Part shown: positions 1 through 15,051 of the stretch, in pieces
Layout: every line of letters starts with the position of its first letter
Position numbering within the stretch: position 1 is the first letter of the stretch
Origin: Thermodesulfobacteriota bacterium
GTDB taxonomy: Bacteria > Desulfobacterota > Deferrisomatia > Deferrisomatales > JACRMM01
Length of the DNA: 37,174 bases
Assembly (NCBI GenBank): GCA_040756475.1
Contig: JBFLZB010000023.1
Span: 1 to 37,174, forward strand
Direction: 5' to 3'
Notes under the pieces: generated by a model
What the model was told of the DNA's origin: nothing
Database searches by the model: none
Seen by the model: only the letters and a program-made list of their open reading frames with translations
Translations under genes and position numbers: made by a program

Positions 1-32
1 GCCGGCCGCGAGCCGCCCTCCCCCCCGGCGCC

Positions 33-95
33 TCAACAGGGGTGGACGGACGAAGTGCCGACGACGCGAGGTTTCACATAGGTGAGCTTCTTCAT
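33..95 (-). CDS. 20-residue peptide, possible modified-peptide precursor
   Basis: A short reading frame encodes MKKLTYVKPRVVGTSSVHPC and a TGA stop. It is preceded by a strong ribosome binding site, AAGGAG six bases before the ATG. It lies about 130 bases downstream of the YidD-like gene on the same strand, so it could be the last visible gene of that run. The sequence has a basic start, a YxxP motif (YVKP) and a terminal His-Pro-Cys. YxxP is used by RRE/PqqD-like domains to recognise some RiPP leader peptides, so a precursor role is possible but not shown. An in-frame ATG at 158 would give 41 residues but has a weaker ribosome site. No function is recognised from the sequence alone. Confidence 0.45.
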   Translation of the reverse strand: MKKLTYVKPRVVGTSSVHPC

Positions 96-225
96 CTCCG
101 TCTCCTTTCCGAGCAGGGCGAGGGCAGCGGTTCGCCCCCGCGGTTTGAGGAACCCCATCGGTTGCTCTTCCGCGCGCGACCGGCTCTGCAGCACGTGCCG
201 CGTGGGCTTCGAAACAAGAGTCGCC

Positions 226-681
226 TCACGGGTCGAGCCGGCCTCTCAGGAAGGCCAGGTCGTCCTCCACGGGGGCGTACACCCGCCATCTGCCCCCTAC
301 GAAGATCCGCGGTGAGAACGCCGCCTCGTCGGCGTCGGACAGGAGCCGTCCCGCCGTCAGGGCAATCCCCAGCACCGGTCCGTGCTCGCGCAGCGCCTCC
401 ACAGCGTACGCCGAGCAGGTGGGGTAGCTCGGACAACGGGGCCCGTCGACCCGGCTCACCGTGGTCTGGAACAGTCGGACCGCCCACATCAGCGGAAGGG
501 CCACCGGGTTGGTCGAAGCTTCCGCCTCTTTGGGCGGCGCACGGCGCCAGCCCGGAGGATCCCAGCCCGCGCTGGCGGTTGCCGCAGCTACCAGCAACGC
601 GCCGATGGCGAGGGCCAAGCAGATGGGGCATGTCATCGTCCTCTGCCGATCGTCCCCGCGGGTGGCTCCGGCTTCGTTCAT
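226..681 (-). CDS. YidD-domain protein with N-terminal membrane segment
   Basis: The core LFQTTVSRVDGPRCPSYPTCS followed by AYAVEAL and a HGP turn matches the YidD (membrane protein insertion efficiency factor) family, whose members help insert inner-membrane proteins. Unlike ordinary YidD, which is about 70-90 residues, this protein has a hydrophobic signal-like segment (CLALAIGALLVAAATASAG) in front. It also has a different C-terminus (SPRIFVGGRWRVYAP) and lacks the usual last Cys-containing motif. Three starts are possible. ATG 750 overlaps the upstream TlpA stop as ATGA, ATG 681 has a GGGAG site (chosen, 151 aa), and ATG 636 begins right at the hydrophobic segment. It follows the TlpA lipoprotein directly and is probably co-transcribed. 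A secreted or periplasm-facing YidD derivative is inferred. Confidence 0.7.
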   Translation of the reverse strand: MNEAGATRGDDRQRTMTCPICLALAIGALLVAAATASAGWDPPGWRRAPPKEAEASTNPVALPLMWAVRLFQTTVSRVDGPRCPSYPTCSAYAVEALREHGPVLGIALTAGRLLSDADEAAFSPRIFVGGRWRVYAPVEDDLAFLRGRLDP

Positions 682-746: not shown

Positions 747-1316
747 TCATTGCCTGCACATCTCCAGAAGTTTCTGCACTTCTTCTTCGATCACCGCTCC
801 GAGTGCAGGTTTGAACCCCGTGTGGACCGCCCTCACCATGCCGGTCCTGTCGATGAGCACCGTGACCGGTACGGCCCACGGTGCGTAGCGCGCCGAGGCG
901 CTCAGGTCCGGGTCCAGCGCCACCGGGTACGGAAAGACGATCCCCCGCGTCTGCAGGGTCTCCCGAAGCCTCGCCGGCCCGCCGTTGTCAATGTTGACCC
1001 CGAGCACCTGGAACCCCCGCCCCCCGTACTCGGCCTGGAGCCGGGAGAGGAGCGGGAACTCCTCCAGGCATGGGGCGCAGGAGATGCTCCAGAACTGGAG
1101 CAGAATGGCCTTCTGCCCCACGATCTCGGACAGGGTGACCACCCCGCCGCCGAGGGCGGGGGCGGCGAAGTCGAAGTAGGGCCTGCCCACCTCCACCGTG
1201 CCGTTTCCCGGCGGCCGTGGCCCCGCCAGGGGCATCACCTCGCCCACCAGCCGGGGCCCCGCACAGCCGAACACTAGGACTAGGGGCACCAGCAGCACCA
1301 AGAGCAGAGGCCTCAT
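747..1316 (-). CDS. TlpA-like thioredoxin lipoprotein
   Basis: This 189-residue protein has a lipoprotein signal ending LVFGC (Cys18) and a TlpA/ResA-type thioredoxin fold. The redox motif is WSISCAPC (Cys80, Cys83), and the cis-proline region reads AVPVTVLIDRTG. Such proteins act outside the cytoplasmic membrane as thiol reductants or oxidases, often keeping CXXCH cysteines reduced for haem attachment. That role fits the multihaem cytochromes encoded upstream in the same direction. Its stop overlaps the ATG at 750 of the possible long YidD start. The 71-base gap before it, after the PhnD-like gene, holds no clear promoter. The family assignment is secure; the specific partner is inferred. 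Confidence 0.88.
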   Translation of the reverse strand: MRPLLLVLLVPLVLVFGCAGPRLVGEVMPLAGPRPPGNGTVEVGRPYFDFAAPALGGGVVTLSEIVGQKAILLQFWSISCAPCLEEFPLLSRLQAEYGGRGFQVLGVNIDNGGPARLRETLQTRGIVFPYPVALDPDLSASARYAPWAVPVTVLIDRTGMVRAVHTGFKPALGAVIEEEVQKLLEMCRQ

Positions 1317-1387: not shown

Positions 1388-2221
1388 TTAGTACTCCTCG
1401 TAGGGCGGCATCTTCGCCAGCCGCGCCCAGCGGCGGATCTCGTCGTAGTCGGCGTCGGTCAGGGCTTCGTAACCCGCGATCTGCGCCCGTTTGAGCACCC
1501 GAAGGGTTTCCCCGCCGGTAGGCGCTGTGGTTCGGTCGTCGAGGGCCAGAAGGGCCGCGCGCACCTTGCCGACCCAGGCATCGGAGACGCCGGGGGCCGC
1601 GGCGAAGGTGCAGTAGGGGGCCAGCGGGCTGCGGCCCAACACGGTGAAATCGTCGGGCGCCACGCGCCCGTCGGCGCCCATCTCCTCCAGGTCGATCAGG
1701 GGCGCGGTGCCGGCGTCGAAGCCGCCGTACAGGACGGAGTAGAGGATCTTCTGGTGCTTCATGCTCCCTCTCGGGATTCCGTAGTAGGCCAGGTCCTGTT
1801 CCGGGTCGATGCCCCCTTCCAGCATCAGCGCGTACTGGGCCAGGAATCCGAACGGTGCCCATTGCGGCCCGAAGACGACCCGCTTGCCCTTGAGGTCGGC
1901 CAGGGGTTGGAGCCCCGAGTCCTTGCGGGCGATGATCACCCCGCGGGTCCTGGCCCCGAACGCCCCCCGCCTCTCGGCCGCGATCGGTCGCACGCCGTGG
2001 CGCTCGCGCAGGACCACGTAGAGGAGCGAGTTCGTGTGGGTAAACTCGAAATCCCCCTGCTGATAAGCGCTTTCCACGTCGACCGTGTCCAGATACACCG
2101 CCTCGAATCGAGCCCCGGTGGATTCGGAGAGATACGCCGTGAGCGGGTCGAACCTCTCTCGGGTCTCTTCGAGGGAGTTGCAGATCATGTACCCGATGCG
2201 AAGCACGGGCGGGCGACTCAC
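1388..2221 (-). CDS. PhnD/SsuA-type substrate-binding protein, signal peptide out of frame
   Basis: The 277-residue frame from GTG 2221 reads LRIGYMICNSLEETRERF, then a GDFEFTHTNSLLY-type pocket and DLKGKRVVFGPQWAPFG. These match the phosphate/phosphite/phosphonate ABC transporter binding-protein family (PhnD-like). No signal peptide lies in this frame. One frame over, from GTG 2324, which overlaps the preceding TGA as GTGA, there is a clear lipoprotein signal (LLGLVAGLVLFSSLPAC, Cys codon 2226-2228). The intact gene would therefore be about 1388-2324 with a one-base shift between about 2205 and 2226. This is either a sequencing error or a true frameshift. No permease or ATPase is nearby, so it may serve as a sensor or orphan binding protein; the ligand is unknown. 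Confidence 0.8.
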   Translation of the reverse strand: MSRPPVLRIGYMICNSLEETRERFDPLTAYLSESTGARFEAVYLDTVDVESAYQQGDFEFTHTNSLLYVVLRERHGVRPIAAERRGAFGARTRGVIIARKDSGLQPLADLKGKRVVFGPQWAPFGFLAQYALMLEGGIDPEQDLAYYGIPRGSMKHQKILYSVLYGGFDAGTAPLIDLEEMGADGRVAPDDFTVLGRSPLAPYCTFAAAPGVSDAWVGKVRAALLALDDRTTAPTGGETLRVLKRAQIAGYEALTDADYDEIRRWARLAKMPPYEEY

Positions 2222-2324
2222 GCCGGCAAGCCGGTAGGGACGAGAACAGCACGAGCCCCGCGACCAGCCCGAGCAGGGGCCGGGGCGGTCTGGCGTGCCC
2301 CGGTCGTTTCGCTTTCGGGATCAC
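2222..2324 (-). other. Detached lipoprotein signal peptide of the PhnD-like gene
   Basis: A GTG at 2324 overlaps the TGA of the upstream beta-helix gene by four bases. It opens a stretch encoding a basic start, a hydrophobic core and the lipobox LPAC. The frame then runs on without homology, while the PhnD-like body continues in the next frame. Position, coupling and lipobox together indicate this is the true 5' end of the binding-protein gene. Confidence 0.65.
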
Positions 2325-3205
2325 GGTCGTCTCTCCCGGGGGGCCCACGGGCCGGAGAGGCGGGGTTCGACGATCACCCGACCGACCCCTTCGGAGTCGG
2401 CTCCGTCAAAAATCTTCTGCGCCAAGGCGGTCGAGTCCGCTGCGCCCCACCAGTTGTTCGAGGCGTCCACATCCGAGGTTTGCAGCTCTCCCAGTTTGAC
2501 GGCGTACTCCAGATCACCGAAGTTGTTGTGCCTGACCAGCGCACCTTCGACCTCCTGGCGGAAGAAGATCCCGGTGAGGTTGGCGACGAAGGAGTTGCCT
2601 TCGATCACCGGGGAGGCACGCCACAGGCGCACGCCGATCCGGTTGCCCTCGAACCGATTGGCTCGCAGCACGATCTCGCCGCCCCGGCCCCGCACGCCGC
2701 CGTAGTTGTCCCAGAACCGGCACGCCTCCACGGTCCCGCGGGTGTCGTGGAGGTGGAGTCCCCACGGACCCCGCCGAAACACGCAGTGTCGGAAGCGCGC
2801 GTCTTGGGCCTCCCGGACGTCCACCATGTTCTCCAGCGGGTTCTGGCGGGGTTCCACGGGCGTGAACAGGATGGGGGCCTCCTCGGTTCCCTCGGCGTGA
2901 ATCCTCCCGTGGACCGTGATCCAGGCCGAGTCGGGTTCGAGCTCCTCGGTCTCGGGCAGGTCGAAGAAGACCCGCGTGCCCGGCTGGAGGGTGAGGGCGG
3001 CGCCCGTGGGCACGACCACCGGTCCCACCACCCGGAGGTCGCCGGACCAAATCGGGCTGCCGGACAGGGTCTGGCCAGCGACAATCCGCGCCTCGTGCGG
3101 GACGTCGAATCGAGCCACTTCCGGAGGAGGCGCACCCCAGGCGGGCGCCCACCCGAGAAGCCCGAGGAAGGCGATGAAACCCGCAGCGAGGGCCCACTTT
3201 GTCAC
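2321..3205 (-). CDS. Right-handed beta-helix (NosD-like) exported protein
   Basis: This 294-residue protein starts at GTG 3205 with a signal peptide (ALAAGFIAFLGLLGWAPAWG). It carries parallel beta-helix repeats with the rhythm seen in NosD/PbH1 proteins, for example RFRHCVFRRGPWGLHLHDTRG, EACRFWDNYGGVRGRG, ANRFEGNRIGVRL and GNSFVANLTGIFF. An early segment (PVVVPTGAALTLQPGTRVFF) and a late NNWWG element are also typical. Beta-helix proteins of this kind are periplasmic or extracellular and often bind carbohydrate or assist maturation of metal proteins; the role here is not known. It starts 7 bases after the TlpA gene at 3213 and overlaps the PhnD signal start. The protein encoded at 6172-7029 is a paralogue with the same TlpA-then-beta-helix arrangement. 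Confidence 0.85.
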   Translation of the reverse strand: MTKWALAAGFIAFLGLLGWAPAWGAPPPEVARFDVPHEARIVAGQTLSGSPIWSGDLRVVGPVVVPTGAALTLQPGTRVFFDLPETEELEPDSAWITVHGRIHAEGTEEAPILFTPVEPRQNPLENMVDVREAQDARFRHCVFRRGPWGLHLHDTRGTVEACRFWDNYGGVRGRGGEIVLRANRFEGNRIGVRLWRASPVIEGNSFVANLTGIFFRQEVEGALVRHNNFGDLEYAVKLGELQTSDVDASNNWWGAADSTALAQKIFDGADSEGVGRVIVEPRLSGPWAPRERRP

Positions 3206-3212
3206 GGCCGTA

Positions 3213-3779
3213 TCACGGTTTGCACGCCGGGTCAGCCAACAGTTCGTCGAGCACGAACGGCACCTCGCTGATGCCGTCGGCGTAGTCGCCCACGTGGCTG
3301 TAGCGGATCACGCCCTGGCAGTCGATGATCACCTTGAGCGGGATCGGTCCCGAAAGGCCGTAGGTCTTGGTGGCCACCTCGAACTCGGTGTCCAAGAGCA
3401 GCGGGTAGGTGAGCCCGAACTTCTCCTTGAGCTCCCGGATCTTCTCCCGGTCCTTCTTGTCGCCGCGGCTCAGGGTGATCCCGAGGAGCACGTACCCCTT
3501 GTCCTTGTACTCCTCGTACTCCCGAACCAGCCGAGGCATTTCGCTCTTGCAGATGTCGCACCAGGTGGCCCAGAACTCCAGCATCACCACCTTCTTGCGC
3601 AGGAACTGGCCCAGCGAGATCGGCTGGCCGGTAGAGAACTCCTCCAGGGTGAAGTCCGGAGCCCGGTCCCCGAGCTGGAGCCGCATGGCCGTGTCCTGGG
3701 CTGCGGCGCGGGGCACGAGCCCGGGGAAAGAAGCGGCAGCGGCCGCAACGACGGCGAGCAGGGCGATTCTCCGCATCAT
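3213..3779 (-). CDS. TlpA/ResA-like periplasmic thioredoxin
   Basis: The 188-residue product has an N-terminal signal (ALLAVVAAAAASFPGLVPRAAA), then GDRAPDFTLEEF and the active site FWATWCDIC (Cys74, Cys77). A cis-Pro region (GPIPLKVIIDCQG) follows. This is the AhpC/TSA-redoxin type of membrane-facing thioredoxin used in thiol redox control and cytochrome c biogenesis. A GAGGAG site precedes the ATG at 3779; a second ATG at 3776 is equally possible. It sits 10 bases after the 7-haem cytochrome gene and directly before a beta-helix gene. A role in reducing haem-site cysteines of the neighbouring cytochromes is inferred. Confidence 0.9.
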   Translation of the reverse strand: MMRRIALLAVVAAAAASFPGLVPRAAAQDTAMRLQLGDRAPDFTLEEFSTGQPISLGQFLRKKVVMLEFWATWCDICKSEMPRLVREYEEYKDKGYVLLGITLSRGDKKDREKIRELKEKFGLTYPLLLDTEFEVATKTYGLSGPIPLKVIIDCQGVIRYSHVGDYADGISEVPFVLDELLADPACKP

Positions 3780-3789
3780 GGTGTGCTCC

Positions 3790-4896
3790 TCAGTGGTCGA
3801 TCCGCCCCGGCGCCCGCCACTGCTCGACGAGCCGTCGGGACCATTCGAGATCCCGGCCTTCGTGACACTTGCCGCAGTACTTCTCGATCTCGGGGTCGTA
3901 GCACTGCTGCACGTGGACCAGAAAGTACCCGTAGGAGTGGATGTCTTGCTCGTCGGACACGTTCATGATGTCCTTCGTCTTCTGGACATGACAGTCGAAG
4001 CAGGCCAGATCCGTGCCGGCCGGGTGGCGGGTGTGCTCGGGGTACTTTTCCTTGAACTCGTGGCAGCCGAAGCAGAAGTCCAGGGCCGCCGCGTTCTCGT
4101 TCTTCTTGGTCTCGGGAGCGCCCGGGATGCCGCACACGTCGCACTTGCTCTTGCCGGCCTTGCGGTCCTCCTGCCACTTGTCGTAGGCGCGCAGGATCGC
4201 CTGGGAATTGGTCTCCCCGGGCTGCACGTCGTTGGGAACGTAGTGGTGGCCGAGGTCTTCCCCCGGCGTGAAGGCCACGGGGAAGTGGTAGGTGCCCGAG
4301 GGGTCTTTCCCTCGCACGTGACAGGCGGCGCAGATCATCTTGCGGCGGTCTTCCGGAAGCTTCGCCGGTTGGACGATGGCGGCCTCGCCTCCCGCCTCTG
4401 CGTGGGCCTTGCCCGGGCCGTGGCACGACTCGCACCCGATCCGGTGCTCCGTCTCCGTGCCCGTGTCGGGCTCGTAGGCGGTCACGTGGCACCCCCGGCA
4501 GTACTTGCTGTACGGCATCTTGCGCCACCCCCACACGTTGTAGGGCTGCCAGGTCCGGGACGGAACGCTCCAAAGTTTCGGCAGGACGTAGTAGTCGTCG
4601 TCGATCTTCTTCATGTACCGCTGGTCCCAGTGCCCGCCGATGGTGTATTCCACCTCGTCCCGCGTGAAGGGGAGGCCGGGCGCGGTGAAGTCGCCGAGGA
4701 TGGCCGATGGGTCTTTCTTGGCGTCCTTGACCACCGTGGCGTGAAAGGTCTCCTTCCAGCCATCGTATTTCTCTTTGTGGCACTCGGCGCACCGGTCGCT
4801 CCCCGCGTACCCGGCGGGGTCCAGCATCTCCGCCGCGCTCGGCCCCGAGCCGAGCGTGAGCGCCAACGCGCCCGTCGCGATCATCCTTCGCATCAC
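3790..4896 (-). CDS. Multihaem c-type cytochrome, seven CXXCH sites
   Basis: This 368-residue exported protein has seven canonical haem-binding motifs in order: CAECH, CRGCH, CESCH, CAACH, CFGCH, CFDCH and CGKCH. There is also a CDVCG (4129-4143) that lacks the histidine ligand. The N-terminus (MIATGALALTLGSGPSAA) is a signal peptide. Blocks such as GGHWDQRYM, YNVWGWRKMPYSKYC and GCESCHGPGKAH recur in the neighbouring cytochrome at 4934-6175, so the two are paralogues. Proteins of this class carry electrons in the periplasm or to the cell exterior. The gene lies 37 bases after its paralogue and just before a TlpA gene, consistent with one operon. Redox partner and location are inferred. Confidence 0.9.
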   Translation of the reverse strand: MMRRMIATGALALTLGSGPSAAEMLDPAGYAGSDRCAECHKEKYDGWKETFHATVVKDAKKDPSAILGDFTAPGLPFTRDEVEYTIGGHWDQRYMKKIDDDYYVLPKLWSVPSRTWQPYNVWGWRKMPYSKYCRGCHVTAYEPDTGTETEHRIGCESCHGPGKAHAEAGGEAAIVQPAKLPEDRRKMICAACHVRGKDPSGTYHFPVAFTPGEDLGHHYVPNDVQPGETNSQAILRAYDKWQEDRKAGKSKCDVCGIPGAPETKKNENAAALDFCFGCHEFKEKYPEHTRHPAGTDLACFDCHVQKTKDIMNVSDEQDIHSYGYFLVHVQQCYDPEIEKYCGKCHEGRDLEWSRRLVEQWRAPGRIDH

Positions 4897-4933: not shown

Positions 4934-6175
4934 TCATTGGATCAGGAACCGGTCCACGATGCGTCTCGACTCCTGCCGGGCCCACCCGTCGTCTCGGTCT
5001 TCCTTGAGTTGGGTGTTGTGGCAGTACACGCACGCCTCCGCCGTGGTCATCTCCCGGGGGTACCGGACCGGCAACAGGTGGAAGTCCGGAGCGTAGTACT
5101 GGCACCGGTCTCCGGACACGCTCCCGGGCTCGTGGCACTCGGTGCAGGCCGGGGCCGGCTGGCTGAAGTCGAATTTGTGGTCGTGGATCGAGTAGGTCGT
5201 CCCGCGTTTCGCCATCCGGGGCACGTGGCAGTCCCGGCACTCGACCTTCTCCGGCCGGTGCCCGGAGTGCTGTAGGAAGTTCTCGCTGCGGTACTTGTGG
5301 CAGGTGCCGCAGTACTCGCTGGGGCCCATGATCCGCTCCTTGGGCGCTGAGATCCCCCGGTCGAAACCGCATACCTCGCAGGCCCGCGTGGTGGAGTAGA
5401 ACTTCGACTGGAAGAAGCGCCACATGCGCTGGCGCTCCAGGAAGTCCATGGAGCCCCAGTACCACCGTTTGCTGTTGGGCTTGGGCATGAAGAACTCGGT
5501 GAGGTAGTCGTTGAGGTCTTCCCCGGGCACGTAGCCCACGGGAAAGGGGTACTTGCCCGTGACCGTGTCGGTGCCGTCCGTGTGGCACGCCATGCAGATC
5601 ATCTGGGCCCGGTCGGGTGGCAGGTTGGCCGGGTTGACGATCTCCGAGAGACGCCCTCCCGTCTCCACGTGCTTCTTTCCCGGGCCGTGGCAGGATTCGC
5701 AGCCCACGCCCGGCTCGAAGAAGCTCTCGGTCTCCGGGTCGAAGCCCACCGTGTGGCACCCGTCGCAGTGGACGTTGTAGGGCTGCTCCCGCCAGTTCCA
5801 GATGCTGTAAGGCTCCCACTTGCGTTTGGCGACGTTCCAGTACTTGGGCAGGACGTAAAGGACCCCGTCGATCCGGGTGAGGTACTTCTGGACCCAGTGA
5901 CTCCCCAGGACGTACACGACGTCCTCCCGGCCGAAGGGGATGTCCTCGTTGAAGTCGGTGGCCAGGATCGCGAACGGATCCCGGACCGCATCGACGAGCA
6001 TCCGCGAGTGGGAGCTCAGGCGCCACTGGGCGTAGACCTCCGGGTGGCACCGGGCACAGGTGTCGCTGCCCGCGTACCCGGGGAGGCCCCCGAACTCTGC
6101 TCTCGCCTCACCGGCGACCAGGGTGAAGGCGAAAAGGCCCCCGGCGACCAAGGCGCAAACAGCCGAACGATTCAT
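4934..6175 (-). CDS. Multihaem c-type cytochrome, eight CXXCH sites
   Basis: From ATG 6175, which overlaps the beta-helix stop as ATGA, the 413-residue product has a signal peptide (CALVAGGLFAFTLVAGEARA). Its eight haem motifs are CARCH, CDGCH, CESCH, CMACH, CGTCH, CRDCH, CTECH and CVYCH. A CEVCG without histidine (5366-5380) sits where the paralogue has CDVCG. Shared blocks with the 3790-4896 protein include GSHWVQKYL, YSIWNWREQPYNVHC and GVGCESCHGPGKKH. The extra motifs are near the C-terminus. It probably works in periplasmic or extracellular electron transfer. Translational coupling to the beta-helix lipoprotein gene suggests the products act together or in fixed ratio. Confidence 0.9.
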   Translation of the reverse strand: MNRSAVCALVAGGLFAFTLVAGEARAEFGGLPGYAGSDTCARCHPEVYAQWRLSSHSRMLVDAVRDPFAILATDFNEDIPFGREDVVYVLGSHWVQKYLTRIDGVLYVLPKYWNVAKRKWEPYSIWNWREQPYNVHCDGCHTVGFDPETESFFEPGVGCESCHGPGKKHVETGGRLSEIVNPANLPPDRAQMICMACHTDGTDTVTGKYPFPVGYVPGEDLNDYLTEFFMPKPNSKRWYWGSMDFLERQRMWRFFQSKFYSTTRACEVCGFDRGISAPKERIMGPSEYCGTCHKYRSENFLQHSGHRPEKVECRDCHVPRMAKRGTTYSIHDHKFDFSQPAPACTECHEPGSVSGDRCQYYAPDFHLLPVRYPREMTTAEACVYCHNTQLKEDRDDGWARQESRRIVDRFLIQ

Positions 6176-7029
6176 TCCGTCTCCCCCGGTCTTTCGTCCC
6201 TGGCGGGGTCCCATCGGGGCCATCCGCGGGGCCCGGCCTCCGAGACCTCCCCGGGAGTCGTCTCGAGCCTGGCCTCCGGCCGGCCGGCGCCCGCGTCCTC
6301 GCCCGAGGGGGGCGCTCCGCCCCAGTCGTTGCCCCGGGTGCGGACGGCGCCGGTGAAGAAATCCCCGAGCCGGAACGGGTGGTCGTTCTCCCGGAACACG
6401 TTGCGCTCGAACGCCGAGCCCTCGTCGGTCTCGAAGAGGAAGATCCCGTTGCGGTTGCGGCGAAAGACGTTTCCGACGACGCTATTCCGGCAGCGGCGCT
6501 GATTGAGGCCCTTGCCGACGTTGCCGGTGAAGAGGCAGCGTTCCACCGCGAGGGTGGACTGGCCGAAGCGCGTGCCGTCCACGTTGTGCCGGAAGACCGA
6601 GTCCGAGATCCGTCCCTTCGAGAAGTGGACGTGGAGCCCGCGCGAAGAGCCTTCCACCACGGCGTACGCCACGTCGACCGTTCCGAAGTCCGCGCGCACC
6701 GCACCCCACTGCCCCGGCTCGACGGGCTCGGCCTCGGAGGTAAAGACGATCGGCGCGGCGGCGGTGCCCACGGCGACCAGGTCCCCTTCGATGCGCACCT
6801 CGGCGTCTCCCCACCCGTCCCCGTCGTCATCCCGGTAGGCGAAGCGGACCACCGTGCCCGGCTCCAGGACCAGGCGCGAACCGCGGGGAACGGTCACGTC
6901 TTCGGTGACCCGCACCTCCCCCCGCCACGTCACGGTTCCCGGACCCGTGTGGGGTTGTGGGGTGGCACAAGCAGCCCCGAGGAACAGGAAGCCCGCCACC
7001 GACAGGAGCCTCCGGGTTCGGCGGATCAC
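6172..7029 (-). CDS. Beta-helix (NosD-like) lipoprotein
   Basis: GTG 7029 opens a 285-residue protein with a lipobox (LFLGAAC, Cys21). Repeats of the parallel beta-helix type follow: DSVFRHNVDGTRFG, ERCLFTGNVGKG, GNVFRRNRNGIFLF and RNVFRENDHPFRLG. A GTVVRF/RIEGDLVAVGT opening resembles the paralogue at 2321-3205, and both end in a GNDWGG/NNWWG element. It would be anchored to a membrane facing the periplasm or the surface. It lies between a TlpA gene (stop two bases upstream of this start) and the 8-haem cytochrome gene, which overlaps its stop. A scaffolding or assembly role for the cytochrome is a guess from context. Confidence 0.83.
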   Translation of the reverse strand: MIRRTRRLLSVAGFLFLGAACATPQPHTGPGTVTWRGEVRVTEDVTVPRGSRLVLEPGTVVRFAYRDDDGDGWGDAEVRIEGDLVAVGTAAAPIVFTSEAEPVEPGQWGAVRADFGTVDVAYAVVEGSSRGLHVHFSKGRISDSVFRHNVDGTRFGQSTLAVERCLFTGNVGKGLNQRRCRNSVVGNVFRRNRNGIFLFETDEGSAFERNVFRENDHPFRLGDFFTGAVRTRGNDWGGAPPSGEDAGAGRPEARLETTPGEVSEAGPRGWPRWDPARDERPGETE

Positions 7030-7030
7030 C

Positions 7031-7573
7031 TCAGTTCCCCCCGCCCAGGGCCTGCTTCACCTTCTCCTCGAGCTTGATCTCGTCCCCCGGGGCGTAGCCC
7101 ACGTGGTAATCGACGACCTTGCCCTGCCGGTCGATGAGTACGGTGGTGGGGAGCACGCTCACGGAGTAATCGCCGGCCACCTGCCGGCGCTTGTCGATCA
7201 CCAGGGGGAAGGGGATGGGGTAGTCCAACCCTTCCACGAACCGGACGACCCGCTTCGAGCCGAAGCTGTCCAGGTTGATGCCCACGACCACGAGGCCCCT
7301 CTCCCGGTACCGCTCATAGAGGTCGATGATCTTGGGCATCTCTTCCATGCAAGCCACGCAGTAGATGGACCAGAAGTCGAGCAGGATGACGTCTTTGCCC
7401 AGATGCGGGCCGAGCTCCAGGTCTCCGTCTTCTAACAGCGGTGCGGTGAAGGAGGTGGCGGCGGCGCCGGGTTGGGGTTTGTCTGCGCCGAACGCCGGCC
7501 ACGGCACGCCCGGAGCGGCGAGGCACAAGAGGGCGGCTGTGAGGAAGCTCGCGGTCGTTCGCATGGTGTCCAT
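7031..7573 (-). CDS. TlpA-like periplasmic thioredoxin
   Basis: The 180-residue product begins with a signal peptide (ASFLTAALLCLAAPGVPWPAFG). It carries the thioredoxin-like active site FWSIYCVAC (Cys72, Cys75), and the cis-Pro segment is VLPTTVLIDRQGKVV. It is closer in layout to TlpA/ResA than to cytoplasmic thioredoxin. ATG 7573 or ATG 7564 could be the start; neither has a strong ribosome site. It is the first gene of the TlpA/beta-helix/cytochrome set after a 99-base gap, which holds only weak GC-rich inverted repeats. It probably supplies reducing power for cytochrome thiol chemistry. Confidence 0.88.
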   Translation of the reverse strand: MDTMRTTASFLTAALLCLAAPGVPWPAFGADKPQPGAAATSFTAPLLEDGDLELGPHLGKDVILLDFWSIYCVACMEEMPKIIDLYERYRERGLVVVGINLDSFGSKRVVRFVEGLDYPIPFPLVIDKRRQVAGDYSVSVLPTTVLIDRQGKVVDYHVGYAPGDEIKLEEKVKQALGGGN

Positions 7574-7931: not shown

Positions 7932-8771
7932 TCACGCTACTTCCCGGGCCGGCTCCGGAAACGCCGCGGGCTGCTCCCCTTCTGGTCGCGAGAGCACCGT
8001 GGTCACCGTGATGGCCTCGCATGCGGTGCAGTCGAGGCACCGGATGCACTGGCCGGTGTTCTCTCCCTCGTAGACCTTGATCTCCATGGGGCAGACCTCG
8101 AAGCACTTGTCACAGTGGGTGCAGGTCTTGGCGTCCCAGTGCAGGCGCACGAAGCTCAGCCGGTTGAAGAGGCCGAAGATCGCCCCCAGGGGGCACGTGG
8201 TCTGACAGAAGGGGCGTTTGGCGATGATCGACGAAGTGGTGAAGAAGATCAGCATGGCCAGCTTGATCCAGAAGAGGTCCTGGATCATGTTCCGGATGTC
8301 CCCGCTGATCGTCACCCACGGGAGGCCGCCGGCCAACGTCCCGGCGGGACAGAGCTTGGAGAACCAGTTCTGGCCCGTCACCCACGGCAGGACGAACACC
8401 AGCACGACCAGCACGATGTAGCGAAACGGCCGGAGGTACCGCGGGATGCGGATCTTGAACGACCGGAGCTTGTAGAGGAGATCCTGGAAGAACCCGAATG
8501 GGCAGATCGTGCCGCACGGCATGCGCCCGATGAACGCGCCGACGGCGCCCAGGTACCCCATCACGTAGTAGGGGATAGAGCGCACCACCATGAAGTGCTG
8601 GAGCGACCCGAGGGGGCAGGAGAAGAAGGCCGAGGGGCAGGCGTAGCAGTTCAGCGCCGGGATGCAGAACCCCTTGCCCGCCCCCTGGTACACGGCCTTG
8701 GCCCAGTAGCCTTTGAGCCAGCCGTTGGCCCCGAGGCTCGTGCCCAGTTGGAGGTAGCGTCGCAGTCTCAT
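7932..8771 (-). CDS. NapH/NosR-like membrane 4Fe-4S protein
   Basis: The 279-residue product, from ATG 8771 with AAGGAG upstream, has several membrane helices. Cys-rich motifs of the polyferredoxin-type membrane family (Fer4_5) lie between them: RMPCGTICPFGFFQDLLYK, LCPAGTLAGGLPW and CQTTCPLGAIFGLFNR. The C-terminal ferredoxin segment contains CTHCDKCFEVCP and CIRCLDCTAC, enough for two clusters. NapH-like proteins pass electrons from the quinol pool to periplasmic acceptors. An early CYACPSAFFSCPLGSLQ segment adds more cysteines. The gene overlaps the ResB-like stop as ATGA. An electron-supply role for the nearby cytochromes is inferred, not shown. Confidence 0.85.
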   Translation of the reverse strand: MRLRRYLQLGTSLGANGWLKGYWAKAVYQGAGKGFCIPALNCYACPSAFFSCPLGSLQHFMVVRSIPYYVMGYLGAVGAFIGRMPCGTICPFGFFQDLLYKLRSFKIRIPRYLRPFRYIVLVVLVFVLPWVTGQNWFSKLCPAGTLAGGLPWVTISGDIRNMIQDLFWIKLAMLIFFTTSSIIAKRPFCQTTCPLGAIFGLFNRLSFVRLHWDAKTCTHCDKCFEVCPMEIKVYEGENTGQCIRCLDCTACEAITVTTVLSRPEGEQPAAFPEPAREVA

Positions 8772-9913
8772 GCAGGCACGCTCCTTTCGTTCGCCCTCGG
8801 ATGGTCGAAGAGGGCGCGGCCAGCCGTCGTGCTTCCCCGCCCGGAGGCATGCGGTGGGATAGGGCTTGCCCCGAGGGACGGCGGGATCCGGTCGACGGTC
8901 AGCCGGAGATAGGCCACGATTCGGGGCACTCGGCGGGTGCCTCCGACCGCGGCCAGCGCCCCGGCGAAGACGAGGAGTCCGCCGGCCGCGGCCCAGGCCA
9001 ATCCCGGGTCCCTCACTACCCAGAAGCGCAGGTACTCGCACCCCGGCGTGAACTCGGTCAACCGAAAGAACAGAGCCCCGCCGCGTGCTCGGTCCAGGCC
9101 GGGCAGGGCGCGATAGACCAGGAAGGAGTCGGCTCCGCGTAGCGGGTCGCGAACGACCAGGCGAACCGCCGGGCCGAGATCGTTTCGGCTCTCCCAGAGT
9201 CCGGTCACCAGGACCTGCGTTCCGGTGCCGGGTACGGCGACCGCGTCTCCCTCCCCCACTTCCAGTCCATCCAGCAGAGGTGTCCCATCCCGGTCGAAGA
9301 TGCTGAGCACCCCTCGCGCTCCGACGCGGACCTCGCCCGCCGGGTAGAGGCGCAGGCCGTCCGAGAACCACACCGTGTTGCCTGCCCGGATGGGAGTCGT
9401 GTCGCCAGCATCTTCCCCTGCGCGTCGCACGACGACGCCCCCCTGATTCGGGTCGCCTTCCGGCGGGTACTCCAGCGCGAACGGGAGAGGGACGGCGGTG
9501 CCGTCGCGGAGCGTTGCGGTGTTCGCGATCCCGAAGCGCGGGACCAGCACTTGCCCCCGAAGCCCCCGTCCCTCCCCCAGCGCATGCCCGAGCAGTGCCA
9601 GGAGAAGGCCGCTGTGGGCAACCAGGAGGCCGGTCCGGACCCGGGGTCCGACGCCCGTGGACTCCGCCGCCGGCTTGGCCACGCAACCAGCGACGGCGCT
9701 CACGGAAAGGCCTGCCACCAGAACCCATAGGAGAGGGGCGAGGGCCGCCACCGGCGACGTCGCCGCCGCCTCAGCCCATCCGGCGGGTGCGCCCCGGAAA
9801 CGTCCAGACGCCGCGAACGTGCCAGCCAGCGCCAACGCTGCGAGAAGACATAACGAAACCTTGGGAGAGCCGAGGGCCGCCAAGAGCCCTCGGGCCGGTC
9901 TGTGAATTCCCAT
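8768..9913 (-). CDS. ResB-like cytochrome c biogenesis membrane protein
   Basis: The 381-residue protein from ATG 9913 has N-terminal helices (LLAALGSPKVSLCLLAALALAGTF is one region, then APLLWVLVAGLSVSAVAG). It also has a periplasmic domain and a last helix after EYLRFWVVRDPGLAWAAAGGLLVFAG, the arrangement of ResB/Ccs1. The segment VTGLWESRNDLGPAVRLVVRDP matches the family's periplasmic domain. It is shorter and more divergent than the second ResB at 20157-21533 and has no CcsA next to it. ResB normally works with CcsA in system II haem delivery and ligation. Here it may instead serve the adjacent iron-sulfur protein. The ribosome site is weak. Confidence 0.75.
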   Translation of the reverse strand: MGIHRPARGLLAALGSPKVSLCLLAALALAGTFAASGRFRGAPAGWAEAAATSPVAALAPLLWVLVAGLSVSAVAGCVAKPAAESTGVGPRVRTGLLVAHSGLLLALLGHALGEGRGLRGQVLVPRFGIANTATLRDGTAVPLPFALEYPPEGDPNQGGVVVRRAGEDAGDTTPIRAGNTVWFSDGLRLYPAGEVRVGARGVLSIFDRDGTPLLDGLEVGEGDAVAVPGTGTQVLVTGLWESRNDLGPAVRLVVRDPLRGADSFLVYRALPGLDRARGGALFFRLTEFTPGCEYLRFWVVRDPGLAWAAAGGLLVFAGALAAVGGTRRVPRIVAYLRLTVDRIPPSLGASPIPPHASGRGSTTAGRALFDHPRANERSVPA

Positions 9914-11603: not shown

Positions 11604-11945
11604 TCAGACGGCGCCTTCGCCGCGCTCGCCGGTGCTGATTCGCACCGCTTGCTCCACGTCGGAGACGTAGATCTTGCCGTCGCCCTTGAGGCCCGTGTGG
11701 GCCGTCTGTTGGATGGTGCGGATGACCTCGTCCACCAGGTCGTCCCGGCAGACGATCTCGAGCTTGACGCCGGTGACATAGTCGATCAGATCGTCCACGA
11801 CACGATGCGGCTGGTCCTTGGCCCGCCCACGGCCGAAGCCCCGGACGTCGGTCACGCTGATGCCCGTGAGGCCCTCGATTTTGTGCAGGGCCAGGGTCAC
11901 GGGCGCGAGCTTGTGCTTCTTGATGTACGCCTTGATCTCTTTCAT
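11604..11945 (-). CDS. PII-like signalling protein linked to metal efflux
   Basis: The 113-residue protein keeps the PII signature near the C-terminus (TGLKGDGKIYVSDVEQAVRI followed by STGE) and the GFGRGRAKDQPHRVVDD T-loop region. Position 51 of GlnB, the uridylylated tyrosine, is replaced by His47 here, so control by GlnD is not expected. PII homologues beside CusABC-type pumps were described as the PII-NG group, and this gene lies 10 bases after the RND gene. It probably senses a nucleotide or metal state and acts on the pump or its expression. The ribosome site GAGGAG is good. Confidence 0.88.
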   Translation of the reverse strand: MKEIKAYIKKHKLAPVTLALHKIEGLTGISVTDVRGFGRGRAKDQPHRVVDDLIDYVTGVKLEIVCRDDLVDEVIRTIQQTAHTGLKGDGKIYVSDVEQAVRISTGERGEGAV

Positions 11946-11955
11946 CGGGGTCTCC

Positions 11956-14900
11956 TCACAGAGTCTGGACCGAACGGTTGGGGTCGATGGCGAACCACTT
12001 GTAGAGGGCGGGGAGCACGAGCAGGGTGAGCACCGTGGAGGTCACGAGGCCACCCACCACCACGGTGGCCAGCGGCCGCTGCACCTCGCTCCCCGTCCCG
12101 GTGGAGACCAGGAGCGGCGCGAGCCCCAGGAGCGTGGTGATCGCGGTCATGAGCACCGGCCGCAGGCGCACGCAGGCGCCCTCGACGCAGGCCTCGGCCA
12201 GGGGCACCCCGTCCCGCAGGAGCTGGTTCAGGTACTGGACCAGCACCATCCCATTCTGGAGCGCGATGCCAAAGAGCGCGATGAACCCCACCGACGCCGG
12301 CACCGAGAGGTTCTGACCCGTGAGCCACAGGGCCACGGCGCCGCCGACCAGGGCCAGGGGGATGTTGAGGATGATGAGGAGCGAGCTCTTGAGCGAGTTG
12401 AAGTTCGAGTAGAGGAGCAGGAACACCACCAGGAGGGTGATCGGTACTACCAGGGCGAGCCGCTTGTTGGCCTCCTGCTGGAGTTCGAACTGGCCGCCCC
12501 ACTCCACGAGGTATCCGGGCGGGAGCTTCGCCTCCGCGTCGATGGCGGCCTGGGCGTCCGCCACGAAGGTGCCGATGTCTCGGCCCCGCACGTTGCACTG
12601 CACGGCGATGAAGCGCTGGTTGTTCTCCCGGGTGATCTGGCGAGGGCCCACGATCTCCTCGATCCGGGCAAGGTCCCGGAGCGGCACGAGCCCCCCGGCC
12701 GGCGCCGGGATCAGGATGCGCCCGATGTCCTCCGGGGTGGCGCGGTCGGCCTTGGCGTAGCGCACCACGATGGCGAAGCGGGCCACGCCCTCGAAGATCT
12801 GGCCCGCCTCCTCGCCCCCCACCGCGGCGCTCACCACCTCCTGGACCTCGGCCACGTTGATGCCGTGGCGGGCGATGGCGTCCCGGTCGATGGTGACGCG
12901 CACCTGGGGGGTACCGCTCACCTGATCGCGCTGCACGTCGGCCGCGCCGGGCACCTCCCGGATCACGGCCTCCACCCGGGCCGAGACCTCCTTGAGCACC
13001 TCCATGTCCGGCCCGAAGATCTTCACTGCGAGCTCGGCCTTGGTGCCGGTGAGGAGCTCGTCCACCGCCGCGGCGATGGGCTGGGTGAAGTTGAACTGGG
13101 TGCCGGGGAAGCTCTCGAAGGCCTCGCCCATAGCCGCGTAGAGGGCGTCGGGGGTCTTCGCGGTCGTCCACTCGGCCTCGGGCTTCAGGGCCACGAAGGC
13201 CTCGGCCGAGTTCACCGGGTCGGCGTGGGCCCCCACCTCGCCCCGCCCCACCCGGGTGACCACCCGCGTGACCTCGGGGAACTGCGCCATGAGGCGCCGC
13301 TCGAAGCGGAGCATCGTGTCCCGGGCCTCCTCGAGTGAAATCGACGGCGCCATGGTGGCGCGCACGAGCAGGTCTCCCTCGTTGAGCCTCGGCACGAACT
13401 CCGAGCCGAGCTGCGGGAGCACCCAGGCGCCGGCGGCGAGCATGCCGAGGGCCAGGACCACGGCCGCCAGCCGGAAGCGGACGAAGAGGCGGACCAGGGG
13501 CCGGTAGGGCACCAGGAGCACCCGCACCACCCGGCTCTCCGCCGCCTCGCCCTTCGGGCGCCGCATCAGGAGATGCGCGGCCACCGGCGCCAGGAGCAGC
13601 GCGAAGAGGAGCGACCCCAGCATGGCCAAGGACACGGTCTCGGCCAGGGGCCGGAAGGTCTTGCCCTCGACCCCCTGGAGGGTGAAGAGGGGCAAGAAGA
13701 CCAGGATGATGATGGACACGGCGAACAGGATGGGCCGGCCCACCTCGGCGCAGGCCCGGGCCACCACGTGGACCCGGGGCTCGGCCGGGTCGGACTGCCG
13801 GAGCATCCGGTCCACGTTCTCCACCATGACGATGGTGCCGTCCACCAGCATGCCGATGGCGATGGCGAGCCCCCCCAGGCTCATGAGGTTGGCCGAGACC
13901 CCGAGGACCTTCATCAGGATGAAGGCGAAGAGGAGCGAGAAGGGAATCGAGAGCGCCACCACCGCGCTCGGCCGAAGTCCTCCCATGAAGAGCAGGAGCA
14001 CCAGGGCCACCAGCGCGATGCCCTGGACCAGGGCGTCGGTCACCGTGGCCACGCACTTCGCCACCAGGGTGGCCTGGTCGTAGTAGGGGACGACCCGCAC
14101 CCCGGGCGGGAGCACCTTGTTGACCTCCGCCAGGCGCGCCTTGACGTCGGCGATCACCTGGGAGGTGTTGGTGCCGATGAGCTTCAGGACCATGCCGGCC
14201 ACGGTCTCGCCTTTGCCGTCCATGGTGGCGAGCCCCCGGCGGATCTCCCCGCCGATCTCCACATCGGCCACCTGGCTGAGATACACCGGCGTGCCCCCCA
14301 CCGACTTCACCACCACCCGCTCGAGGTCCGCGGCGTCCTCGGCCAGCCCCACCGACCGGACGATGTACTCCTCCTTGTTCTTCACGATGAACTGGGCGCC
14401 GGCGTTGGCGTTGTTGGCCCGCAGCGCCTCCACCACGTCGTGGAGCCCGAGGCCGTAGCGCACGAGGTCCATGGGCCGCACGGCCACCTGGAACTGCTTC
14501 ACCTCGCCCCCCAGGCTGAGAATCTCGGTGACGCCGGGCACGGCCTGGAGGTTGAACTTGATCAGCCAGTCCTGGATCGTCCGGGTCTCCTCGGGGCCGA
14601 GCTTGCCGGTCTCGTCTTCCACGAAGTAGAAGAGGATCTGCCCGAGGCCCGTGGTTATGGGGCCCATCTCGGGCTCGCCGAAGCCCTCGGGGATCTGCTC
14701 CCGGGCCTCCTGGAGCCGTTCGTTCACGAGTTGGCGGGCGAAGTAGATGTCGGTGCCGTCCTCGAAGTAGACGTTCACCACCGAGAGCCCGAAGTTCGAG
14801 ACCGAGCGGAGCTCCTTCAGGTTGGGCAGGCCGTTCATGACGGCTTCGATCGGGTAGGTGACGTACTTCTCCACCTCCTCGGGCGCCAGGCCCTCGGTCT

Positions 14901-15051
14901 CGGCGAAGACCTGCACCAGGGCAGGGGTCACGTCGGGGAAGGCGTCCACCGGTAGGGACCGGTAGCTCAGGACCCCGGCCCCCATGACCAGGGCGGCCAG
15001 GGCCACCATCAGCAGGCGGCTGCGCAGGGTGAACTGGATGAGCTTTTCCAT
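11956..15051 (-). CDS. cusA: Heavy-metal RND efflux pump, CusA/CzcA type
   Basis: This 1031-residue inner-membrane transporter has the full HME-RND architecture: an N-terminal helix, porter domain (FPDVTPALVQVFAETEGLAP), helices 2-6, a second porter domain and helices 8-12. The fourth helix motif (LMSLGGLAIAIGMLVDGTIV) places Asp404 where CusA has its essential Asp405. The SLGGLAIAIG form is nearer to CusA and relatives than to the CzcA SLGALDFG form. The metal cannot be fixed from sequence; Cu(I)/Ag(I) or a divalent metal are both possible. It is encoded after the CusB-like adaptor (21-base gap, GAGAGGAG site) and before the PII-like gene. It exports metal by proton antiport across both membranes with its partners. 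Confidence 0.92.
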   Translation of the reverse strand: MEKLIQFTLRSRLLMVALAALVMGAGVLSYRSLPVDAFPDVTPALVQVFAETEGLAPEEVEKYVTYPIEAVMNGLPNLKELRSVSNFGLSVVNVYFEDGTDIYFARQLVNERLQEAREQIPEGFGEPEMGPITTGLGQILFYFVEDETGKLGPEETRTIQDWLIKFNLQAVPGVTEILSLGGEVKQFQVAVRPMDLVRYGLGLHDVVEALRANNANAGAQFIVKNKEEYIVRSVGLAEDAADLERVVVKSVGGTPVYLSQVADVEIGGEIRRGLATMDGKGETVAGMVLKLIGTNTSQVIADVKARLAEVNKVLPPGVRVVPYYDQATLVAKCVATVTDALVQGIALVALVLLLFMGGLRPSAVVALSIPFSLLFAFILMKVLGVSANLMSLGGLAIAIGMLVDGTIVMVENVDRMLRQSDPAEPRVHVVARACAEVGRPILFAVSIIILVFLPLFTLQGVEGKTFRPLAETVSLAMLGSLLFALLLAPVAAHLLMRRPKGEAAESRVVRVLLVPYRPLVRLFVRFRLAAVVLALGMLAAGAWVLPQLGSEFVPRLNEGDLLVRATMAPSISLEEARDTMLRFERRLMAQFPEVTRVVTRVGRGEVGAHADPVNSAEAFVALKPEAEWTTAKTPDALYAAMGEAFESFPGTQFNFTQPIAAAVDELLTGTKAELAVKIFGPDMEVLKEVSARVEAVIREVPGAADVQRDQVSGTPQVRVTIDRDAIARHGINVAEVQEVVSAAVGGEEAGQIFEGVARFAIVVRYAKADRATPEDIGRILIPAPAGGLVPLRDLARIEEIVGPRQITRENNQRFIAVQCNVRGRDIGTFVADAQAAIDAEAKLPPGYLVEWGGQFELQQEANKRLALVVPITLLVVFLLLYSNFNSLKSSLLIILNIPLALVGGAVALWLTGQNLSVPASVGFIALFGIALQNGMVLVQYLNQLLRDGVPLAEACVEGACVRLRPVLMTAITTLLGLAPLLVSTGTGSEVQRPLATVVVGGLVTSTVLTLLVLPALYKWFAIDPNRSVQTL

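Follow-up and report, generated by a model that had tools for sequence, protein, structure and literature searches.

A Cys-terminated 20-residue peptide encoded at the end of a multihaem cytochrome operon is a very probable precursor for the GeoRSP radical SAM/SPASM system

The window, by which we mean the whole stretch of DNA analysed, is the entire 37,174-base contig C23 of a draft genome (G000; 369 contigs, 96% complete), and since it spans the whole contig the assembly does not extend leftwards of base 1 and that flank is unreadable. At this edge a 20-codon frame closes a long operon, whose features are given below with the model matches on which they rest.

1..32, minus strand: 3' flank rich in GC, which may form the first arm of a terminator hairpin that the contig end truncates (from the sequence only)
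95..36, minus strand: predicted precursor peptide gene, MKKLTYVKPRVVGTSSVHPC, with ATG at 95-93 and stop TGA at 35..33 (sequence and a family of 56 intact copies)
107..102, minus strand: ribosome-binding site AAGGAG, 6 nt ahead of the ATG (sequence)
226..681, minus strand: YidD-like protein, directly before the peptide gene (PF01809, E 9.4e-14)
747..1316, minus strand: TlpA/AhpC-TSA thioredoxin-like protein (PF00578, E 1.4e-16)
1388..2221, minus strand: PhnD-type periplasmic binding protein (PF12974, E 9.2e-48; clusters with the PhnD genes of GeoRSP loci)
2321..3205, minus strand: NosD-like parallel beta-helix protein with homologues within GeoRSP cassettes (PF05048, E 2.6e-8)
3213..3779, minus strand: TlpA-like protein (PF00578, E 1.2e-23)
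3790..4896, minus strand: multihaem cytochrome c with 7 CXXCH (PF13435, PF14522; motif count)
4934..6175, minus strand: multihaem cytochrome c with 8 CXXCH (PF13435, PF14522; motif count)
6172..7029, minus strand: NosD-like beta-helix protein (PF05048, PF13229)
7031..7573, minus strand: TlpA-like protein (homology cluster common to the other TlpA proteins)
7932..8801, minus strand: NapH/MauN-type ferredoxin membrane protein (TIGR02163, E 1.6e-19, under the curated cut-off)

Read in the direction of the genes, the order on this strand is ResB-like (assigned by eye) and NapH-like, TlpA, NosD-like, the 8-CXXCH and then the 7-CXXCH cytochrome, TlpA, NosD-like, PhnD-type, TlpA, YidD and, last, the peptide. 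The original prediction had placed the peptide downstream of a YidD-like gene in a redox-rich operon, and this describes the locus itself well, with PF01809, cytochromes, TlpA and PhnD-type proteins all present, although the adjacency to yidD is not conserved among relatives. It had also proposed a 20-codon frame with a strong ribosome site, and this frame is a genuine gene, far beyond a chance ORF. Further copies are found in the same genome, one on contig C32 and two on C149, one of the latter with its start lost, and inverted repeats (GAGGGCCGGC...GCCGGCCCTC) lie 3' of these paralogues on C149 and C32. Elsewhere in the window, judging by the ORF list only, a small P-II-like ORF (11604-11945) comes after an RND/CusA-like efflux pump ORF (11956-15051, minus).

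The neighbourhoods retrieved contain 56 intact copies of 18-20 residues from 28 genomes. Their 15-residue tail, (Y/F)xxPx(V/I)xGxxxVHPC-stop, runs without insertions through all 56, with Pro9, Gly13, Val17, His18, Pro19 and Cys20 invariant and the Tyr of the YxxP motif replaced by Phe in three copies. Between genomes, codon positions 1 and 2 differ at 0.22 per site and position 3 at 0.60, about three times as much, and Pro, Gly and Val each use all four of their codons, so that selection acts on the protein. Conservation of YxxP and HPC in related genomes, which had been suggested as a check, therefore extends across the family, as does the ribosome site, an SD-like sequence preceding 55 of the 56 copies. 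We also noted decayed copies (L005:2248-2310 and L042:2107-2169) that keep a VHPC or LHPC end and have lost the start codon or the leader, which suggests that the precursor gene has been duplicated locally and has decayed.

Two contexts of the peptide are conserved, namely the GeoRSP cassette and operons for multihaem cytochromes. In eleven loci (G003, G004, G005, G007, G009, G010, G011, G032, G069, G324 and G342) 0-170 bp separate the peptide gene from a preceding gene for the GeoRSP radical SAM/SPASM enzyme (TIGR04303), which itself comes just after the PqqD-type gene (TIGR04302), and none of these eleven loci showed another candidate for the precursor. The TIGR04303 matches are full-length, score 380-622 bits in the wider set, with 20 genomes above the cut-off of 400, and carry CxxxCxxC together with the Cys pattern of SPASM domains. 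Genes for a PhnD-type protein, NosD-like beta-helix proteins, a TPR protein and a YedE-type transporter (TIGR04112) tend to form part of the cassette as well; among the loci examined, a SPASM-only partner (TIGR04304) is above cut-off in G035 and weakly matched in G325 and G268, and in the order to which the window belongs none turned up next to the enzyme. Around 15 of the 26 enzyme-bearing genomes have no peptide directly beside the enzyme. It had been predicted that the frame is a RiPP precursor belonging to a radical SAM/SPASM and PqqD cassette, for example of the GeoRSP type, and the eleven loci support this; a search for peptide-modifying genes nearby and for conservation in relatives, the lack of which had been named as contrary evidence, found both.

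The distribution of this conserved family, which evolves under protein-level selection, follows that of the GeoRSP radical SAM/SPASM and PqqD-type genes. With thresholds of E<=1e-4 for the peptide and E<=1e-80 for TIGR04303, 25 of the 395 genomes of the phylum have both, three only the peptide, one (G006) only the enzyme and 366 neither (28 with peptide, 26 with enzyme; Fisher p ~3e-35, a value that overstates independence because the genomes are related). At the family level, the enzyme is found in 11 of 12 peptide families and the peptide in all 11 enzyme families. A PqqD-type gene is present in 27 of the 28 peptide genomes (TIGR04302 E<=1e-8), mostly under the curated cut-off of 100 bits, and its predicted PqqD-family membership holds by homology and position, not by the cut-off. 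The three peptide-only genomes, G008 (81% complete), G249 (96%) and G362 (98%), were rechecked with all candidates scored; G249 and G362 retain the PqqD-type gene despite no enzyme being detected. In family f30, the sampled members G037, G207 and G325 have both peptide and enzyme, and at least seven genomes (G073, G107, G134, G184, G229, G307 and G343) have neither. In those seven (among loci L154, L155 and L158-L162) a GeoRSP-like PqqD gene sits beside a twin-arginine-signal-like protein, in several with a SPASM-like gene, and without the GeoRSP radical SAM gene or the peptide; lying beside such genes without that radical SAM gene, these PqqD genes look like, and possibly are, a different or reduced system.

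The window operon has homologues of the PhnD-type and beta-helix proteins of the GeoRSP cassette and lacks the maturase. The latter had been expected just beyond the window, and in this detail the original prediction was wrong as far as can be seen, since the only GeoRSP enzyme of the genome is on contig C83, where it lies at least 6 kb inside both contig ends (6.2 kb from the nearer one) with no adjacent peptide. It scores 394.1 bits against TIGR04303 (curated cut-off 400), the next best model reaching 213, 180 bits lower, and the PqqD-type gene of this genome scores 55.9 bits against TIGR04302 (curated cut-off 100). From C83, the enzyme can reach the predicted precursors encoded on C23, C32 and C149 only in trans. 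Radical SAM genes near the paralogues on C149 were considered as the maturase and rejected, as the one that was scanned gave weak matches to other families and genes of this kind are not a conserved neighbour of the peptide.

By context, the 56 copies comprise 11 behind the enzyme, 21 at the ends of cytochrome operons (at least 21, the class being defined by a cytochrome of five or more haems within 4.5 kb upstream), 13 at other operon ends, eight at operon starts, often preceding a FG-GAP/ASPIC protein, and three alone. The type of operon seen in the window (TlpA, 8-haem, 7-haem, TlpA, NosD-like, peptide) recurs in G362, which belongs to a different family. A segment of large multihaem proteins, CSKCHxPHxxRLPxLMxxNCL, was found at 56 genomic places in 18 genomes, and 20 of these places have a same-strand peptide gene within 6 kb downstream, mostly within 450 bp. 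In G032, one and the same peptide is encoded behind the enzyme and again behind a cytochrome operon, as expected if one enzyme serves both.

Other neighbours were observed as well. Large Ig-like repeat proteins lie directly before the peptide at L006:1906-5097 (minus), with homologues in G002, G004, G008, G010, G032 and G069, and end in a lipoyl/biotinyl-like domain (weak acetoin dehydrogenase E2 match, residues 990-1055) with no obvious modified lysine. The phage contig IMGVR_UViG_3300002231_000542, with ORFs for terminase, portal-like, capsid-like and tape-measure-like proteins and ribonucleotide reductase, has one intact copy, MKKYMKPKVVGSSSVHPC, standing alone at L153:6688-6741 (minus) behind a strong ribosome site; this peptide is identical to the enzyme-adjacent peptide of G069, and no GeoRSP enzyme was found on the phage contig. 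The peptide had no match among annotated phage and plasmid records.

The frame could instead be a regulatory mini-ORF or attenuator, its translation controlling where transcripts end or how the genes downstream are expressed, with no role for the peptide as such. It is short, hairpin-like sequence adjoins it and many copies precede an operon end, but the amino acids are kept while synonymous codons vary freely, most copies stand at operon 3' ends where there is nothing to attenuate, and the peptide follows the GeoRSP genes genome by genome, which together make this explanation extremely unlikely. There is next to no chance that the TGA after the Cys is read through as selenocysteine. TGA does follow the Cys in 47 of the 56 copies, and hairpins lie downstream in several, by a simple fold-energy count without shuffle control that is not used as evidence; however, eight copies end in TAA and one in TAG, which rules this reading out, and conservation does not continue past the stop. 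As all three codons serve as stop, the Cys is the true C-terminus.

A further alternative is that the peptide works in the same pathway without being a substrate, for example as an assembly partner or ligand of multihaem cytochromes co-inherited with GeoRSP. The 21 copies that end cytochrome operons and the 20 CSKCH-segment places with a peptide downstream would fit such a role. We nonetheless consider it highly unlikely, since the eleven copies directly behind the maturase occupy the usual place of a precursor, the leader holds an RRE-binding motif and those loci offer no rival candidate. Given the adjacency in eleven loci and the co-occurrence across genomes, the gene very probably encodes a RiPP-type precursor that is a substrate of the GeoRSP system.

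How the GeoRSP system would act on such a precursor can be proposed from its sequence and from its nearest relatives. The RREs of lasso peptides bind the motif [Y/W]xxPx[L/V/I/F/A] (PMC13381572), which the YxxPx(V/I) leader fits, apart from the three copies with Phe. The PqqD-type protein, an RRE domain, would bind this stretch, and the radical SAM/SPASM enzyme would then act on the invariant C-terminal Val-His-Pro-Cys. Only a short tail follows Gly13, closed by the invariant Cys, and VHPC is probably the modified part of the peptide. Closest to the enzyme among other models are mycofactocin MftC and the haem synthase AhbD, both of which remove carboxyl groups oxidatively, and this favours a modification of the terminal Cys. 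The most likely target would be that residue, converted to a thioether or oxidatively decarboxylated as by MftC and AhbD, perhaps with cross-linking of the Cys to Val17 or His18 in addition, but any one specific chemistry is doubtful.

One maturase would serve several scattered precursors, the copy in the window included, and the products would be used by the exported redox machinery (multihaem cytochromes, TlpA, beta-helix proteins) whose operons end with the precursor. The many precursors per enzyme argue for a product needed per operon over a single low-copy cofactor, and gene dosage would fit too. We tentatively propose that each large operon for multihaem cytochromes or exported redox proteins encodes a Cys-terminated peptide of its own, which GeoRSP would mature in trans, and that the product could be a new redox, metal-binding or thiol cofactor of extracellular electron transfer, whose precursor phages carry too; this wider picture is possible, with the balance leaning somewhat against it.

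Among known systems, the closest is GeoRSP itself (TIGR04302, TIGR04303, TIGR04304), whose models are matched by the enzyme and PqqD-type genes that adjoin the peptide or share a genome with it, with the TIGR04304 partner in several loci. The GeoRSP NCBIfam models describe the proteins, and the peptide matched no Pfam or NCBIfam model; a search of the open literature, subscription journals lying outside it, found no paper on GeoRSP in this sense or on VHPC sequence strings. A likely substrate can be named for a radical SAM/SPASM cassette for which the searches found no model of a precursor, and an orphan enzyme becomes a testable reaction of one enzyme, one chaperone and one 20-residue peptide. 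The thio(seleno)oxazole SbtM, geopeptide and other radical SAM/SPASM RiPP systems have the enzyme superfamily in common, but the GeoRSP enzymes fall far under the cut-offs of those models (94.6 against 350 for SbtM). With the precursors of lasso peptides and LPP, whose leaders are bound by discrete RREs, the YxxPx(V/I) motif is common to both (PMC13381572), whereas here a radical SAM enzyme replaces the lasso enzymes and the whole precursor is only 18-20 residues long. The likeness to mycofactocin (MftA/MftB/MftC) and PQQ (PqqA/PqqD/PqqE) lies in the small precursor, the PqqD-type chaperone and the radical SAM/SPASM enzyme. MftC, whose model ranks second for the enzyme, acts on the last residues of its precursor. 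Unlike these two systems, the one described here has a Cys-terminated precursor with a YxxP leader, several dispersed precursors per enzyme and a cytochrome-operon context, and because precursor copies mark multihaem cytochrome operons, its product may be a missing component of electron transfer outside the cell or in the periplasm.
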